Of a stretch of DNA of 45,999 nucleotides, positions 6,870 to 13,787 are shown in pieces. The number at the start of each line of letters is the position of its first letter. The first letter of the stretch is position 1. A model generated the notes under the pieces. That model searched no databases and was not told the DNA's origin. It saw only the letters and a list, made by a program, of their open reading frames with translations. The stretch is from positions 1 through 45,999 of the forward strand of contig NZ_JABKCA010000046.1 of NCBI RefSeq assembly GCF_013166655.1, read 5' to 3'. Made by a program: the position numbers and the translations under genes. This stretch comes from Lentimicrobium sp. L6. Lineage in GTDB: Bacteria > Bacteroidota > Bacteroidia > Bacteroidales > UBA12170.

Positions 6870-7036
6870 ATGAATCGTTAACAGTGAGAGCTAGCAGCAA
6901 ATAATTGTTGCAAATAAGTGATAGGTTTATATAAACTATTATCTATTAATGAATAACTATCATTTTCGTTATCCTTACCTAAATAAAATTTTAATTTTAA
7001 CAATATCCTTCCAAATATTTATATAATTTCGCAGCC

Positions 7037-7246
7037 ATGTTGACGGTTCTCTCCAAAGATTTCTGAGGAGGGTGAAAAGGGAATCCTGTTTAATTCAGGA
7101 GCTGTTCCCGCAGCTGTAAGTCTATAACATTTGAGACTCTTAATGCCATTGTATCTTTTATAGATATGAGAAGGCCACTCAAAATAAAGACAAGCCAGAA
7201 GACCTGCCCAAAACACGAATTTCAAAGCTTTCGGGATAAAAGCTGT
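7037..7246 (+). promoter_or_regulatory. Cobalamin (B12) riboswitch
   Basis: All the landmark pieces are readable in order. GGGTGAAAAGGGAATCC begins the core. The P4-like hairpin is CCTG...CAGG. CTGTTCCCGCAGCTGTAAG (from 7102) is the conserved CTGTnCCGCnACTGTAA-type block, and the B12 box AGCCAGAAGACCTGCC is at 7193-7208. The AGCTG/CAGCT stem (7100-7104/7111-7115) presents loop TTCCCG. A later hairpin, AGCTTT/AAAGCT (7226-7231/7239-7244), presents loop CGGGATA. TCCCG and CGGGA are complementary, which reproduces the L5-L13 kissing loop by which known cobalamin riboswitches couple adenosyl- or methylcobalamin binding to expression. The only gene downstream is the secreted beta-propeller-like protein at 7330. 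The likely response is repression by B12. Confidence 0.93.
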
Positions 7247-7329
7247 AGATCGATGGACCTTCCATTTTTCTTCAATCGTTCCTGTGAGTTTTGAGGAATA
7301 AATTTTATTTATCCTTAAAACAATTTAAA

Positions 7330-8598
7330 ATGAAAAAAAATTACTTTTTGGCTCTATTATTACAAGCATTTGTAATATTAGGAATAGGGCAATCTGTCAA
7401 CCAAATCGTGGTGGGCAATGGCGGAATTTATAATAATGACGCCGACCATGTGATGGTCACTGGTATAAACCCAGAAACCTATACCTCCACCCTTATTGGT
7501 GAAGTGGTAAAAGAATCCATGCAAGATTTAATAGTGGTTGGTGATTATGCCTATGTGGCTGCGGAAGACAGCTTGGCAAAGTTTAACCTGATTACCAATA
7601 CTAAAGAAATAGCTATCTATCATGGTTATTTAAGTAGATTATATTATGCCAATGATATGATTTATGTGAGTTTAAGAAGTGATGCAACAGGTGTTCCTGC
7701 TGATGGTAAATATTTAAAAGCCTTCGACATGAATTTGAACCTAGTATATGAAGCTGAAGGAATTAGTACTGATGCTGCAGGAATGCTGATGTATGAAGAT
7801 TCCTTATACGTTGCAGTTTCTGGTGACTGGGCAGCTACTGAAGGGAAATTGGCAGTAACAAATAGTGATTTAAGCTTTGTAAGAGAAATAAACTTAGGTA
7901 CTGATGCCGTAGGAATTATTGATTTATTTGAAGGAGAAAACGTTATTTATAGCGTTAATAAATCACCTTATGGTGCCACAACAGGTTCTATTTCTACCTA
8001 TAACATTGCTACAACTACTTGGAACACTCAATCACTTAATCATGTGGTTGGTAAAGGTGTTAGAAAAGTCGGAGACCTCCTCTATTTGGGTTTAGATTAT
8101 GGTATTGGTTCATATGATTTATCAACATCAACGGTTGTTAATAATCAAATTATTGCAGACCCAGGTTCAGCCAGTTACATCAATATTGCTGCTGCTGTTT
8201 TTGATGAAATCAATGAACGTTTTTATGTGACTATTACCGACTATTTTTCCCTAGGTGAGGGAAGGGTTTATGATATTGATGGGACTGTTTTAGGAAACTT
8301 TGAAGCCTCTGTTTCAGCTGAAGCAATGGCAATTCATTATGCCAACAACACAGGGCTTTCCACTCTAAAAAACAATAGCTTAAACATTTATCCTAACCCT
8401 TGTCAAAACTTCATTCATATCGGAGCATATCAACAATTGAATTGGATAGAGATTTATAACCAAACAGGTCAATTGATCAAAAGAATACATAATCCTCAAT
8501 CTTCTTTTATTGAAGTTAACGAGCTTAAAGCAGGAATTTATTTTATAAAAACTCAATCACAAAGTGGCATTCATGCAGCTAGGTTTTTGAAAAAATAA
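7330..8598 (+). CDS. T9SS-secreted beta-propeller-like protein under B12 riboswitch (BtuG-like candidate)
   Basis: A 422-residue protein with signal peptide MKKNYFLALLLQAFVILGIG, a body of about 320 residues, and a T9SS type A sorting domain at the C-terminus (LNIYPNPCQNFIHI, then GQLIKRI, LKAGIYFIKT and a final basic RFLKK). The body has regularly spaced strand clusters such as LIVVGDYAYVAAEDSLAKFN, MIYVSLRSDA, DSLYVAVSGDW, VIYSVNKSPYG and DLLYLGLDYG, the look of a YncE/DUF5074-type beta-propeller. An in-frame TTG at 7291 is possible, but ATG at 7330 directly starts the signal peptide and leaves the riboswitch free. The cobalamin riboswitch upstream and the fold suggest extracellular cobalamin binding, as shown for the BtuG propeller lipoproteins of Bacteroides. 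This is inference: no BtuB gene lies in the window. A terminator follows. Confidence 0.8.
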   Translation: MKKNYFLALLLQAFVILGIGQSVNQIVVGNGGIYNNDADHVMVTGINPETYTSTLIGEVVKESMQDLIVVGDYAYVAAEDSLAKFNLITNTKEIAIYHGYLSRLYYANDMIYVSLRSDATGVPADGKYLKAFDMNLNLVYEAEGISTDAAGMLMYEDSLYVAVSGDWAATEGKLAVTNSDLSFVREINLGTDAVGIIDLFEGENVIYSVNKSPYGATTGSISTYNIATTTWNTQSLNHVVGKGVRKVGDLLYLGLDYGIGSYDLSTSTVVNNQIIADPGSASYINIAAAVFDEINERFYVTITDYFSLGEGRVYDIDGTVLGNFEASVSAEAMAIHYANNTGLSTLKNNSLNIYPNPCQNFIHIGAYQQLNWIEIYNQTGQLIKRIHNPQSSFIEVNELKAGIYFIKTQSQSGIHAARFLKK

Positions 8599-8667
8599 GA
8601 GAATCGAATAAAAAATCAAGGCTTTATTTAGCATGATTTCATAAGAAAAGAAAATACACGATTAATA

Positions 8668-8702
8668 GGCTTCCACAATCATTTTGTGGAAGCCTTTTTT
8701 TT
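8668..8702 (+). terminator. Rho-independent terminator after the B12-controlled gene
   Basis: A perfect 11-bp stem GGCTTCCACAA/TTGTGGAAGCC with a 5-base loop, followed by eight T. It closes the riboswitch-controlled gene as a single-gene transcription unit and insulates the chemotaxis operon that begins at 8786. Confidence 0.93.
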
Positions 8703-8720
8703 AAGAATAATTTTACAATT

Positions 8721-8785: not shown

Positions 8786-9088
8786 ATGAACAATTATAAG
8801 CTAGAATACCAAAAAGATGAGAATAACCAAATGAATCAACTTACCTTTAGTGGTGAGCTATCCTTCGGTCATATTCAATATATTAAAGATGAAACAGACG
8901 AATATACCCGTGTAAACAAGCCCCTTCAACTGATCATTAAAGATGTGGAAATGCTTGATTTAAGCTTTATTCAGTTTATTATTGCCTTAAAAAACCATCA
9001 TCCAGAAAATAAAATCACATTAAATATTAATGATGAAATACTAGATCTCATCAAAGTATCTGGATTTTACGAAATATTAATATCATAA
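8786..9088 (+). CDS. STAS-domain protein, first gene of the chemotaxis operon
   Basis: A 100-residue single-domain protein with the STAS layout: strands LTFSGELSF (19-27) and PLQLIIKDVEMLDLSFIQFIIAL (46-68), and a last strand-helix KITLNI...LIKVSGFYEIL. The conserved motif around the usual phosphorylatable serine reads DLSFIQ, with S60 in place. STAS proteins are switched by serine phosphorylation or act as scaffolds; in bacterial chemosensory clusters they often sit next to CheA. It ends 8 bases before the CheY-like gene and so is the first gene of a tightly packed operon. No anti-sigma kinase of the RsbW type is in the window, so its partner is unknown. CheA or the hybrid kinase are candidates. 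Confidence 0.75.
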   Translation: MNNYKLEYQKDENNQMNQLTFSGELSFGHIQYIKDETDEYTRVNKPLQLIIKDVEMLDLSFIQFIIALKNHHPENKITLNINDEILDLIKVSGFYEILIS

Positions 9089-9096
9089 AATAAGAG

Positions 9097-9462
9097 ATGA
9101 AGAAGACCATAATAATCGTTGATGATTCAAACAGTATCAGGAATTTAGTGGAGTTTACTCTAAATAACGCTGGATTTCACGTGATTTCTGCTACCAATGG
9201 CAAGGAAGCATTAGAACTATTTAATGGACAAACAGTGCACCTTTTACTCACTGACCTTCATATGCCCATCATGAGCGGAATGGAATTAATAGCAGAGGTA
9301 AGAAAACTTGAGGAATACAAGTATGTACCCATCCTCTTTTTAACCACTGAAACTCAAGTAAGTATTAAAAAAGAAGCCAAGGATCTTGGAGCAACGGGGT
9401 GGATAGTGAAACCATTTAATGGAGACAAATTAATTACTACTATTAGAAAAGTAATCAGATAA
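9097..9462 (+). CDS. CheY-like single-domain response regulator
   Basis: A 121-residue receiver domain with nothing attached. Acidic pair D9-D10, phospho-acceptor D53 (LLLTDLHMP), switch threonine T83 (LFLTTET) and conserved lysine K105 (IVKPF) are all in place. It is the second gene of the operon, 10 bases before cheA, and is the obvious phosphotransfer target of CheA. With no flagellar genes in the window, the output could be gliding, twitching or a non-motility process. It resembles CheY of the CheA-adjacent type, but the receiver alone cannot separate motor control from phosphate-sink roles, so the symbol is left out. Confidence 0.88.
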   Translation: MKKTIIIVDDSNSIRNLVEFTLNNAGFHVISATNGKEALELFNGQTVHLLLTDLHMPIMSGMELIAEVRKLEEYKYVPILFLTTETQVSIKKEAKDLGATGWIVKPFNGDKLITTIRKVIR

Positions 9463-9472
9463 TTAGAAACCT

Positions 9473-11653
9473 ATGGAAATGGACGAACTCATACAAGGAT
9501 TTCTAGATGAAGCTAATGAACTCATAGTCAACATTGAGGATTCTCTTTTCAATTTAGAAAAGCAACCTGATGACCAAGAAGCTATAGCCTCTGTTTTTAG
9601 GGTCATGCATACCTTAAAAGGTAGTGGTGCTATGTTTGGCTTTTCATCTGTATCTTCTTTTACCCATCATCTAGAAAGTATATATGAGCAAATTCGTTCC
9701 CACAAAATCAAGCTTTCTAAAGAAATTCTCAACCTTACCTTCGAATCTATCGATCTTATTAAAAAGCTTTTAGAAACGACTGAAGCACCTACCGCAAGTG
9801 TAAAATTAGAATATGACCGACTTATCACTGAATTCGAGATTATTTGTAATAATCATCCTGCTCAAGAAGCGCCAATTAAGGCTTTAGAAAAAATTGAAAT
9901 CGATCAGACTCCAACATATTATATCTGTTTTGAACCTAACGAAGGTATTATGCAAAACGGAACAAACCCTTTATACCTTATTGATGAACTGATTTCTTTA
10001 GGGAACGGAAAGGTATTTACCCACATTGAGAATATTCCCAATTACAGAAATTTATTGGTGAAAAACTGCTATGTAAGTTGGGAAATTATCTTGAATACAA
10101 AAGATGAGCTGAGCGATATTTTAGATGTTTTTATTTTTGTTGAGGATGAAAGCAAAATAGAAATACAAAAAATTAGTGATATCAATTTATTAAGACACCT
10201 TGAGTTTGTCGAACAACTACCCAAATACATAGGAAGTAGCGAAGGAAGTGCCATATTAGAATTACAAGAATTTGCTTCACAACTAGAAATTTCTCAAGCA
10301 AATAACACAGCCTCCAATGCTAAACACATAGCTCCCATTATAGAAGAATCATTAGAATTAAAACTTGAGGAGGACAAAAAAGAAGAAATTACTAACCTAG
10401 CCAAAGACATAGACCAAAAAAATGAACAAGTAAAAATAGAGGAGCCTAAAACAGCTGAAACCGTTGTTAATCTAACCACAACCACTGAAACTTCAACAAA
10501 AAGCAAAGGTAGTTCTAGTATCCGAGTAAGCAGTGATAAAGTAGAAACATTAATCAATTTGGTGAGTGAAATGGTAACCATTCAAGCACGCTTGAGCCTT
10601 TTGTCAAAAGAAGCACAAAATCCAGAGATTATAGAAGTGGCCGAAACCTTAGAGAAACTTACTCGTCAACTTCGTGATAATGCCTTTGAGATCAGCCTAA
10701 TTCCTATTTCTAGTTTAGTCACCAGATTTCAACGCCTCATTCGTGATTTATCCAAAGAACTAAATAAAGAGATTGAATTTATTGCCGAAGGAACCGATAC
10801 GGAATTAGACAAAACTATTATCGAGAGCCTAGCGGATCCATTGATGCATATTTTTAGAAATGCAATAGATCATGGCATAGAAAGTACCGAAGACAGGTTG
10901 AAATCTGGTAAAACGGCAAAAGGCACCCTCAAATTCAAAGCATATTATTCGGGCACCAGTGTTTATATTGATATTATAGATGATGGGCAAGGAATAAACA
11001 CCGAGAAAGTAAAAGCTAAGGCTCTATCACAAGGACTAATAAATGAGAAGCAAAACCTCAGCACAAAACAAATTAACGAACTCATTCTTTTACCTGGGTT
11101 CTCCACCGCAGACAATGTCACCGATATTTCTGGGCGAGGAGTAGGCATGGATGTGGTGAAGAAAAATATCAATAAAATACAGGGTGAAATTGAAATCAAT
11201 TCAGTGCTAGGACAAGGAACAACATTTTCATTAAAACTTCCACTCACGCTTTCTATCATCGATGGGCTATTGGTAAGAATAGATAAAATAGAATATATCA
11301 TTCCAATCTTGGTGATTAAGAAAGTATCACCAATGAGACACCAAAATGTTTCCAGTGCATTTAATAATACCATCATAATTGATGGGGAACAACTACCTTT
11401 CTTAAACTTAAGGGAAGAGTTTAATATACAAACCAAAGCACCCGATTTAGTAGAAGTTGTAGTAGTGAACTATGGGAGTAGGCAAGTTGGAATTATCATT
11501 GATAGAGTGATACGAGAATCACAAGTGGTGGTAAAATCCATTGGCAAACACTTTAAAGACCAAGAAATAATTTCTGGTGCCAGTATTATGGGTGATGGAA
11601 GTGTGGCTTTGGTTTTAGATACAAACAAGATAATAGATAAATACTCAAGATAA
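9473..11653 (+). CDS. cheA: Chemotaxis histidine kinase CheA
   Basis: A 726-residue kinase with full CheA architecture. The Hpt (P1) domain is at about 1-105 with phospho-acceptor H46 in MHTLKGSGAMFGF. A folded region at about 145-240 (YYICFEPNEGIMQNG...) sits where P2 is expected. A charged linker of about 240-345 is rich in E and K. The P3 dimerisation helices start near 349 (SIRVSSDKVETLINLVSEMV). The ATPase follows with HIFRNAIDHGIE (N box), DDGQGI (G1) and GRGVGMDVV (G2). A CheW-like regulatory domain runs from about 594 to the end. It autophosphorylates in response to the MCP and passes phosphate to CheY and CheB. ATG at 9479 is an equally good start two codons later. cheW follows after 4 bases. 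Confidence 0.96.
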   Translation: MEMDELIQGFLDEANELIVNIEDSLFNLEKQPDDQEAIASVFRVMHTLKGSGAMFGFSSVSSFTHHLESIYEQIRSHKIKLSKEILNLTFESIDLIKKLLETTEAPTASVKLEYDRLITEFEIICNNHPAQEAPIKALEKIEIDQTPTYYICFEPNEGIMQNGTNPLYLIDELISLGNGKVFTHIENIPNYRNLLVKNCYVSWEIILNTKDELSDILDVFIFVEDESKIEIQKISDINLLRHLEFVEQLPKYIGSSEGSAILELQEFASQLEISQANNTASNAKHIAPIIEESLELKLEEDKKEEITNLAKDIDQKNEQVKIEEPKTAETVVNLTTTTETSTKSKGSSSIRVSSDKVETLINLVSEMVTIQARLSLLSKEAQNPEIIEVAETLEKLTRQLRDNAFEISLIPISSLVTRFQRLIRDLSKELNKEIEFIAEGTDTELDKTIIESLADPLMHIFRNAIDHGIESTEDRLKSGKTAKGTLKFKAYYSGTSVYIDIIDDGQGINTEKVKAKALSQGLINEKQNLSTKQINELILLPGFSTADNVTDISGRGVGMDVVKKNINKIQGEIEINSVLGQGTTFSLKLPLTLSIIDGLLVRIDKIEYIIPILVIKKVSPMRHQNVSSAFNNTIIIDGEQLPFLNLREEFNIQTKAPDLVEVVVVNYGSRQVGIIIDRVIRESQVVVKSIGKHFKDQEIISGASIMGDGSVALVLDTNKIIDKYSR

Positions 11654-11657
11654 TTTT

Positions 11658-12101
11658 ATGAAAAAGCTTTCGTCATATCTAACCTTTCAACTGGGAAAAG
11701 AGAAGTTTGCTGCAAATATTGCAAATGTACTCCATATACTTGGCGTTCCTCAAATTACTGAACTACCCAATTCCCCTGCTCATATTAAAGGTGCTATCAA
11801 TTTACGTGGAAAGGTACTTACTGTAATTGATCCTCACATGAAATTTGAAATTGAAAGTCAAGAAATCACCAAAAACTCATGTATTGTAGTCTTAGAAATG
11901 GAATATGAATCGGATAGACTGGAGATAGGAGCCTTAGTAGATTCCGTTGACAAAGTGATTGAAATAACTGAAAATGAGTTATTGCCTCCTCCTGATTTAG
12001 GAACAAAATTTAAATCAGAATATATTGAAAATGTCATCAATATAAATGATGAATTCATTATGGTACTCAATATAAAAAATGTCTTTACTTCAGAATATTA
12101 A
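11658..12101 (+). CDS. cheW: CheW coupling protein
   Basis: A 147-residue protein consisting of one CheW domain. YLTFQLGKEKFAANIANVLHIL opens the first beta-barrel, PNSPAHIKGAINLRGKVLTVID is the classic CheW signature, and LPPPDLGTKF with a final VLNIKNVF closes the second barrel. It bridges the MCP cytoplasmic tip to CheA at the inner face of the membrane. The start ATG is 4 bases after the cheA stop, so translation is likely coupled. The receptor gene follows 27 bases later. Length and motif order are standard, with nothing odd. Confidence 0.95.
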   Translation: MKKLSSYLTFQLGKEKFAANIANVLHILGVPQITELPNSPAHIKGAINLRGKVLTVIDPHMKFEIESQEITKNSCIVVLEMEYESDRLEIGALVDSVDKVIEITENELLPPPDLGTKFKSEYIENVININDEFIMVLNIKNVFTSEY

Positions 12102-12128
12102 TATTAAAAAAATAGAAAACTACATCAT

Positions 12129-13787
12129 ATGAAAAATCTAAACGTTTCAACCAAGTTGATCATCCTTATCATTACCATGGGAATTATGGGAACATTTGTT
12201 GGAATTTTTGGCATTAACAAAATCCAACAAACTAATGTCAAACTCGAACAAACCTATAAAAACGCTTTGATCCCATTTCAGTATCTGAAAAACATTTCAG
12301 ATGTGTATGCTATTGAAGTACCCAAAACAGTGGATAAAATATATGCTGGCGAACTGAGCTGGTTGTCAGGAAAAGAAAAAATTGAATTAGCCTTAGAAAA
12401 TGCAAATCTTCAATGGGCAGAATTTAAGAAGCTCCCTAAGCAAGAAAGAGAAAATATGATGGTTTCAGAACTAGAGCTTCAATTTATTAGTGCTCAGGCA
12501 AATCTCGAAAACCTCAGACAAGTCTTGATTTCTAGAAATTCTGATGCCCTGAAAAATTACAATACCAGTAGCTTGAATTTGGTCATCACACCTATTAGCA
12601 GAAAAATTCAAGAACTCAGTAAGTTTCAAATTGAAAAAGCAGGTGTGATTTACGAGAAGAGTCTCGAGAATTTCAGGACAGCTGTCATTACCTTTATCAT
12701 TATCCTATCCATAGGTGTGGTAGTAAGTATGCTAATGGCTATCTACATATTAAAAGGAATCAATAATTCTTTAAAAACAGCAAACGATACCATCGATAAA
12801 TTATCCAAAGGTGATTTAAGTGTGGTCATTGAAGAGCAAGGCGATTATGACTTTGGAAGGTTGATAAATAATCTACGTCATTTATCTGAAAGACTAAAAG
12901 ATGTTTTGGTCACTGCTCAAACAGCCAGTGCCAATATCGCCATCACAAGTCACGAGATGAGTAGCAACAGTCAACAAGTAAGTCAAGGCGCCACAGAACA
13001 AGCCGCATCAGTAGAAGAAATGGCCGCTAGCATGGAAGAAATTTCTAGTAATATTCAACAGAATACTGACAATGCACAAAAAACTCAAAAAATATCATCT
13101 AAAGCAGCAGTAGAAATTGAGGAGGGGAGCCAAAATATCAATATCACTGTAGATAGCATGCAAACTATTGCTGAGAAGATCAGCATCATCGGTGAAATTG
13201 CCTTCCAAACTAATATTTTAGCATTAAATGCAGCTGTGGAAGCCGCACGGGCAGGTGAACATGGAAAAGGATTTGGAGTAGTTGCTGCCGAAGTGGGTAA
13301 ACTAGCCGAAAGAAGTAAAATTGCTGCAGCAGAAATAGACGAGCTTAGTAAATCGGGTGTAGATATTGCCTTAAAATCGAAAACCATGCTTTCCAAATTT
13401 GTTCCAAGCATTGAGGAAACTTCAAAACTTGTAGAAGAGATTAGTAATGCCAGTGTAGAACAAAATGCAGGTGTGGAACAAATCAATGATGCCATTCAAA
13501 TGCTAAACCAAGTGACGCAACAAAATGCAGCCTCAAGTGAAGAAATGGCAACTGTTTCAGAACAACTAAGTGCTCAAGCCGAACAACTTAAGAAAACTAT
13601 TTCTTTCTTTAAATTAGGAGATGCAGTTGATATTCCTTCTGAGCAATATAATCAGCAACGTCCAACCAAATTTATTGAACCCAGTCGTCAAACTTATAGT
13701 CCACCAAATAACACCTATAAATCAGAAGGATTTGATCTAGACCTGTCTAAAGGGGATAAAATGGATGATGACTTCGAAACATTTTAA
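12129..13787 (+). CDS. Methyl-accepting chemotaxis protein (4HB-MCP) with CheR-binding tail
   Basis: A 552-residue transmembrane receptor. TM1 is about residues 8-30. A periplasmic four-helix-bundle sensor (4HB_MCP type) spans about 31-183, and TM2 about 184-210. A HAMP domain follows to about 260, then the signalling coiled coil with hairpin tip [20 protein letters not shown] near residues 356-375. The helix arms contain glutamate/glutamine pairs ([17 protein letters not shown]) suited to CheR/CheB/CheD modification. After the coiled coil comes a disordered linker ending DFETF, which fits the CheR/CheB-tethering pentapeptide pattern x-aromatic-x-x-aromatic (NWETF in E. coli). It is the only receptor in the window and lies directly before cheR. 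The ligand is not predictable from the 4HB domain. Confidence 0.95.

Follow-up and report, generated by a model that had tools for sequence, protein, structure and literature searches.

The locus studied here raises the question of what a protein with a type IX secretion system (T9SS) sorting tail does when its gene lies directly behind a cobalamin (B12) riboswitch. The window, that is, the whole stretch of DNA analysed, is the entire contig C46 (45,999 bases) of a 5.14 Mb genome in 195 contigs. A preliminary description, made from the sequence of the window, proposed a candidate extracellular B12-capture protein. Our analysis supports this reading as largely right, based on the predicted propeller, profile matches to BtuG and linkage to riboswitches and btuB, with binding itself as a candidate property. 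The T9SS-tailed, BtuG-like propeller probably serves B12 capture.

A riboswitch, one putatively exported protein and a terminator

The cobalamin riboswitch aptamer lies at 7027-7225 on the forward strand, where it matches the full RF00174 model (1-189) with 100.3 bits (E 4.8e-24), well within the covariance model membership set by its gathering score of 31.5 bits. It is the sole Rfam match in the window at gathering thresholds. The preliminary description had recognized the riboswitch; the start that it gave, 7037, falls within the aptamer, and the start codon of the gene is at 7330. Sequence reading, folding and alignment delimit an expression platform at 7226-7329 (forward strand), which consists of an L13 hairpin and a stem-loop right before the start codon. 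CGGGA (7232-7236), in the hairpin loop right after the aptamer, is complementary to UCCCG (7106-7110) in the L5 loop, and both stretches are identical in two relatives in a leader alignment of 85% mean column identity, which bears out the L5-L13 pairing described earlier. The platform region 7226-7345 folds with a z-score of -2.6.

The gene (ATG 7330, stop 8598, forward strand) encodes 422 residues and has homologs of 79% and 55% identity. An intrinsic terminator follows at 8667-8702 on the same strand, with a stem of 12 pairs and a T-run at 8667-8695; the region 8655-8710 folds at -20.5 kcal/mol (z -6.3), and none of 200 shuffles was equally stable. As had been described, a single gene stands between riboswitch and terminator, since the next one, STAS-like, begins at 8786. 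The observation of a riboswitch, a T9SS-tailed gene and a terminator is confirmed. Downstream, the stretch 8786-13787 holds a chemotaxis-like cluster of STAS-like, response regulator, CheA, CheW and MCP genes; compared by size and order alone, similar ORFs occur 3' of the gene in one relative (L091) and partly in another (L092). The window contains 46 ORFs of at least 90 aa, overlapping ones included, and a Pfam scan of 20 of these besides the gene detected no TonB receptor, in line with the earlier statement that btuB is not in the window.

The export signals agree with the preliminary description as well. Residues 1-21 (7330-7392, forward strand), judged by eye, resemble a signal peptide and contain no lipobox cysteine, while residues 353-422 (8386-8595, forward strand) form a T9SS type A C-terminal sorting domain (PF18962, 8.2e-12; TIGR04183, 1.6e-13). 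Two full-length genes for PorU-type T9SS sortases (NF033707) lie in tandem elsewhere in the same genome (G000, contig C5, 66439-73158), and the protein thus has the PF18962/TIGR04183 tail of a type A cargo in a genome with a T9SS, as judged by the sortase. Among the relatives described below, the tail is present in 22 of 23 and 34 of 34 members of two sets that both include the window protein, and a lipobox-like pattern is found in 1 of 56 full-length members as opposed to 10 of 15 operon BtuGs. A T9SS sortase occurs in 21 of the 21 order genomes with a strong family match and in 259 of 295 across the order, a contrast too weak to prove that the family depends on T9SS.

Type A tails are usually attached to surface lipopolysaccharide, although T9SS cargo can also be released. 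The first of these properties speaks against, and the second for, a mainly released, diffusible or vesicle-borne B12 scavenger rather than a cell-anchored protein, a possibility that we regard as rather unlikely. Vesicles of B. thetaiotaomicron, which deliver B12 through BtuJ according to excerpts of PMC12751083, would provide a precedent for it.

The predicted propeller body and its relation to BtuG

The body (residues 22-337; 7393-8340, forward strand) has no Pfam match above the curated cut-off and no NCBIfam match. AlphaFold2, with three sequences as input (the window protein, L044 and L045), models a propeller for the full-length protein (pLDDT 65.6, pTM 0.64) and, for the body alone (pLDDT 74.9, pTM 0.80), 28 strands. 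Read off the strand list, these make up seven four-stranded blades, the last strand closing the first blade, and the body is predicted to fold as a seven-bladed beta-propeller. When the body model is compared with the PDB using Foldseek, a comparison that the preliminary description had proposed for BtuG, BtuG3 from the BtuB3G3-cyanocobalamin complex ranks first (8p97_B, E 3.3e-11, TM 0.77/0.73). Designed eight-bladed propellers are close behind in E-value with lower TM, and the next highest TM among the best 50 matches, 0.69-0.71, belongs to three chains of BtuK1, entitled 'B12 Binding protein'. For the weaker full-length model, BtuG1 with cyanocobalamin ranks fourth, behind designed propellers by E-value, and its TM is the highest among the best 50 matches. 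The best 50 matches in a viral structure library are generic propellers only. Because model confidence is moderate and propellers look alike, the evidence from sequence matters.

When the window protein and the BtuG of its genome were compared directly by BLASTP, no match appeared, so that the link to BtuG is visible through profiles and structure only. The order-level profile A5, built from 24 family bodies, aligns end to end over 296 columns with profile A6 of 15 operon BtuGs (BtuG/DUF5074), with an hhalign probability of 98.2% (E 3.1e-14), and the class-wide profile A12 aligns with BtuG/DUF5074 over 215 columns with 99.2% (E 9.8e-20); both support the relationship to BtuG suggested earlier. 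The identity of the operon DUF5074 proteins as BtuG was confirmed on one of them, from L082, which matches BtuG structures with E-values around 1e-84 to 1e-80. Seven lactonase propellers of the same order, aligned as a control, reach probabilities of 11% and 2.7% against the two family profiles and 61% against BtuG itself. On the strength of these far lower values against the family, the reading as a generic propeller without a particular link to BtuG was rejected.

Among PDB sequences, A12 matches BtuG chains, 3dsm and 8p97 among them, along almost the full domain with E-values between 1.8e-8 and 2.9e-7; the surface-layer propeller 1l0q outscores them (6.6e-12), with a best stretch that covers half of the domain. 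BtuG is not among the best 60 of the 73 PDB matches of A5, where kelch-type propellers come first, and BtuK1 appears neither in the A12 search nor among the same 60 matches of A5. Blade 1 of the family often reads NGGxY/F or NEGxY/F where BtuG has NEGNF, and the window protein is about 14-15% identical to BtuG. Homology to BtuG across the whole domain is thus found by profiles, through hhalign, PDB sequence matches and a negative control family.

The propeller is therefore a distant relative (paralog) of the surface lipoprotein BtuG. It is not BtuG in the strict sense, because two defining features, a DUF5074 match and a lipid anchor, fail: the search for DUF5074 (PF16819) suggested in the preliminary description returned no match in the window protein at E<=1, and the domain does not appear among the listed families of two member sets (23 and 34 proteins) at E<=0.01. 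The protein likely works like BtuG.

Some seven-bladed propellers are enzymes, and the tetrathionate hydrolase 7cqy is among the best 50 PDB matches of the body model (rank 27, TM 0.58). Sulfatase-modifying-factor-like (FGE) genes, moreover, directly follow the family gene in the riboswitch units of three loci (L187, L191 and L202). Both observations could fit a B12-regulon enzyme, on the surface or outside the cell, that would free or remodel corrinoids instead of serving as a binding protein. This we consider highly improbable: the B12 binders stand clearly above 7cqy in TM, and the lactonase propellers give no convincing match.

The ligand pocket allows a closer comparison. The residues around the ligand of BtuG2 are Trp194, Tyr239, Trp272, Tyr316 and Tyr335 (PMC10404256, in excerpt). 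In the profile alignment, only Tyr335 of the five has an aligned aromatic partner in the family: Y305 in the window protein, a position that is aromatic in 56 of 58 family bodies. Near Trp194, the family has W167 three residues further on (aromatic in 53 of 58 bodies); Tyr239 falls in a gap, beside an SPYG common to both families; and Trp272 and Tyr316 have no counterpart. Among the BtuGs, Tyr316 is kept in 15 of 16 and Trp272 in 1 of 16. The window body is acidic (40 D+E, 15 K+R), as the binding face of BtuG2 is described to be (PMC10404256, likewise in excerpt), but net charges range from -39 to +3 in the family and from -21 to +6 in the operon BtuGs. The partial pocket and the acidity are suggestive of cobalamin binding but do not prove it.

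The incomplete match to the BtuG2 pocket is also what would be expected of a propeller that binds no corrinoid of its own and serves as a surface partner of BtuB-BtuG or of the operon's other T9SS protein, for example as a scaffold, lid or docking element. Kelch-type propellers, the best sequence matches of A5, bind proteins, which points the same way. In the B12 operons of B. thetaiotaomicron, BtuK2 and BtuL did not bind according to excerpts of PMC12751083, BtuK2 in spite of its similarity to BtuK1, showing that homology is no guarantee of binding. However, the structures with the highest TM to the body model are B12 binders, and many loci have no btuB in the stretch examined, which would be odd for an obligate receptor subunit. 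We judge such a non-binding partner to be unlikely.

Relatives across Bacteroidia and B12 genes of the same genome

We analysed 57 loci, namely the window and two more of its genus, 21 of the order from 20 genomes, which leave out the two weakest matches (20-21 bits), and 33 of the class, one each from 33 of the 64 other genomes with matches at E<=1e-10 (the 29 strongest and 4 lower ones). The body is present in 3 of 11 genomes of the genus, and a family match is found in 23 of 295 genomes of the order and, at E<=1e-10, in 65 of 395 of the class. Scanning the named genomes gave no match with the single protein and two relatives with an alignment as query; a scan of viral contigs found no family member.

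A riboswitch lies directly upstream of the family gene at 48 of the 57 loci: all three of the genus, 17 of 21 in the order, on the same strand, and 28 of 33 in the class, where the riboswitch and btuB rates come from sampled loci and may be lower among remote members. In the same transcription unit it is found at 51. These include L090, in which a 192-aa ORF separates riboswitch and gene, and two class loci (L197 and L213) whose riboswitch heads a btuB-led cluster containing the family gene. At the remaining six, three in the order and three in the class, no riboswitch was detected in the unit; the order loci (L078, L080 and L086) show none even at E<=0.5 in about 16 kb each, and keep the usual operon despite this. 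L205 has nearly no upstream sequence, owing to a contig end, and was scored as a miss. Genomes searched whole contain 0-4 matches to RF00174 (in some genomes, among 70 candidates scored), with none in G208 and G292 in this search. The propeller family is thus found across Bacteroidia and is usually under a B12 riboswitch.

A BtuB-like receptor is encoded in the cluster at 29 of 57 loci (17 of 21 in the order, 12 of 33 in the class); receptors were assigned by comparison with the BtuB-like protein of the window's genome, which among B12 models matches TIGR01779 best (1.1e-29) but stays below that model's cut-off. At 15 of the 21 order loci BtuG is present besides the receptor, and the usual arrangement there is riboswitch, family gene, a gene for a protein of about 325 aa, btuB and btuG. 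In the window's genus the gene stands alone. Overall, 28 of 57 loci have no btuB in the stretch examined, among them the window, L091, L092, L075, L076, L083 and 21 of the 33 class loci, which is no proof of absence because the stretches were unequally long and contig ends cut several of them short. The four genes scanned after the family gene of L207 contain no cobalamin-salvage family.

The inspection of homologs proposed in the preliminary description therefore links the family to both riboswitches and btuB. That the riboswitch is a chance neighbour of a protein unrelated to B12 has next to no probability in our view. Six loci without a riboswitch in the unit and the lack of an adjacent btuB in the window would fit such a coincidence, but a riboswitch directly upstream at 48 loci, with 0-4 per genome searched whole, and btuB at 29 would not, and on the former count it was rejected. 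A B12-independent isozyme under B12 control was likewise rejected, the protein being a secreted propeller that lies within the btu operons of many relatives.

The protein of about 325 aa is a candidate for a further B12 protein. It carries a T9SS tail in 17 of 17 cases and has no Pfam body (L070 10791-11762, L082 2260-3237 and 15 other order loci), and it sits between the family gene and btuB at the 17 order loci with btuB and at 7 class loci. The family itself varies in architecture. In L090, a BtuH-like domain and the family propeller are joined in a 1437-aa frame that ends at a contig end. In variants of about 550-570 aa (L070, L072, L074, L087, L088 and L089), a further domain of some 150 aa separates the propeller from the tail; it has no Pfam match (L070, L089) and no PDB match better than E 0.076 (L070). 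A 955-aa member (L187 3681-6548) behind a riboswitch contains two family propellers in tandem. A separate 910-aa protein behind a cobalamin riboswitch (L093 8429-11161, genome G002) carries both a T9SS tail and a canonical DUF5074 (BtuG) domain and is followed by btuH-like, btuB and btuG genes; BtuG-type domains thus either came to use the T9SS route repeatedly or diverged while using it.

Within the genome of the window there are four RF00174 matches, located in the window and on contigs C2, C4 and C97. On C2, the riboswitch precedes genes for an 807-aa T9SS protein, a BtuB-like receptor, a DUF5074 BtuG and an MFS protein, so that the receptor, which the preliminary description had placed elsewhere, is encoded on this contig. 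The 807-aa protein (L025 8491-10914), the first gene product of the btuB-btuG operon, is BtuH-like and T9SS-tailed; its first 330 residues match residues 394-658 of 8blw (3.5e-35) as well as 7biz (5.4e-28). The PDB calls these entries simply 'YncE family protein' and 'Cell surface protein'; we take 8blw to represent BtuG1 including the BtuH domain fused to it, and 7biz to be BtuH2. This assignment also leans on excerpts of PMC10404256 and PMC8941943. On C4 and C97, each riboswitch stands before a Diphthami_syn_2 gene that overlaps a gene for a BtuF-like binding protein (L026 8740-10571, L027 3068-4896). The genome also encodes a B12-dependent methionine synthase. Together with the window, the C2 genes give this genome T9SS-tailed BtuH-like and BtuG-like proteins plus a BtuG of the ordinary lipoprotein type; as the latter is kept, the window protein is an addition to BtuG, not a substitute.

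A proposed role in B12 capture and known systems

The computed features, that is, the riboswitch, the T9SS tail, the sortase of the genome, the homology to BtuG and the conserved linkage to riboswitches and btuB, point to a likely function: the gene would be repressed by cobalamin and encode an extracellular, BtuG-like protein that captures corrinoid and passes it to BtuB-BtuG. The direction of regulation would follow the riboswitch systems of B. thetaiotaomicron (PMC12751083 and PMC6143338, in excerpt): at low cellular B12 the riboswitch would be unbound and the gene expressed. The protein would then leave the cytoplasm by Sec and be directed by its C-terminal tail to the type IX secretion system, and the mature form would end up on the cell surface or, in part, in the medium or in vesicles. 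There, we infer, the propeller would bind corrinoid and hand it over to the BtuB-BtuG receptor encoded on C2.

According to excerpts of PMC6143338, PMC8941943, PMC10404256, PMC12751083 and PMC13398666, BtuG, BtuH, BtuJ and BtuK are known as lipoproteins of gut Bacteroides, and the type IX route would represent a different anchor. The family suggests that T9SS-bearing Bacteroidia place B12-capture proteins outside the cell by this route. It yields a specific set of candidate corrinoid binders, suggests what a body that lacks Pfam and NCBIfam models probably does, and bears on the competition of bacteria for corrinoids. In the openly licensed literature, searched by titles and the beginnings of abstracts, we found no description of a T9SS-exported BtuG-like protein; 'T9SS', 'type IX' and 'sorting' do not occur in the main text of PMC12751083 or PMC13398666. 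Papers that combine B12-related and type IX secretion terms include PMC9723704 and PMC12578637.

More broadly, many Bacteroidia may capture B12 at the surface with a second system that relies on type IX secretion, parallel to the lipoprotein one and acting as an antenna that feeds BtuB-BtuG, a proposal to which we give somewhat less than an even chance. Its parts would be the BtuG-like propeller, T9SS-tailed BtuH homologs such as that on C2, and, from the same riboswitch operons, the unassigned T9SS protein of about 325 aa. Such a system would form a dense corrinoid antenna, attached to the surface or released, as the corrinoid counterpart of hemophores.

A related case on the heme side is HBP35 of Porphyromonas gingivalis, whose C-terminal domain we take to be a T9SS tail. 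HBP35 is hemin-binding, with a conserved C-terminal domain proposed to serve in cell-surface attachment (PMC2907840, in excerpt). Unlike the window protein, it has a thioredoxin-like motif and binds heme rather than corrinoid.

Closer similarities exist to the B12 proteins of Bacteroides. BtuK1 of B. thetaiotaomicron (9S6C), with its TM of 0.69-0.71 to the model, binds B12; in contrast to the window protein, it is a lipoprotein (PMC12751083, in excerpt). BtuG1 fuses BtuG and BtuH (PMC10404256 and PMC12751083, in excerpt), and L090 similarly joins a BtuH-like domain to the family propeller in one frame, although the order of the domains is reversed, Ig-like stretches lie between them and the frame stops at the contig end.

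With BtuG itself (3DSM, 8P97), the window protein shares the seven predicted blades, a blade-1 motif of the NEGxF/NGGxY type, full-length profile homology, B12-riboswitch control and, among its relatives, clustering with btuB. It differs from BtuG in its low identity and in having a C-terminal type IX tail in place of a lipobox and a DUF5074 match, and its genome encodes a DUF5074 BtuG alongside it.
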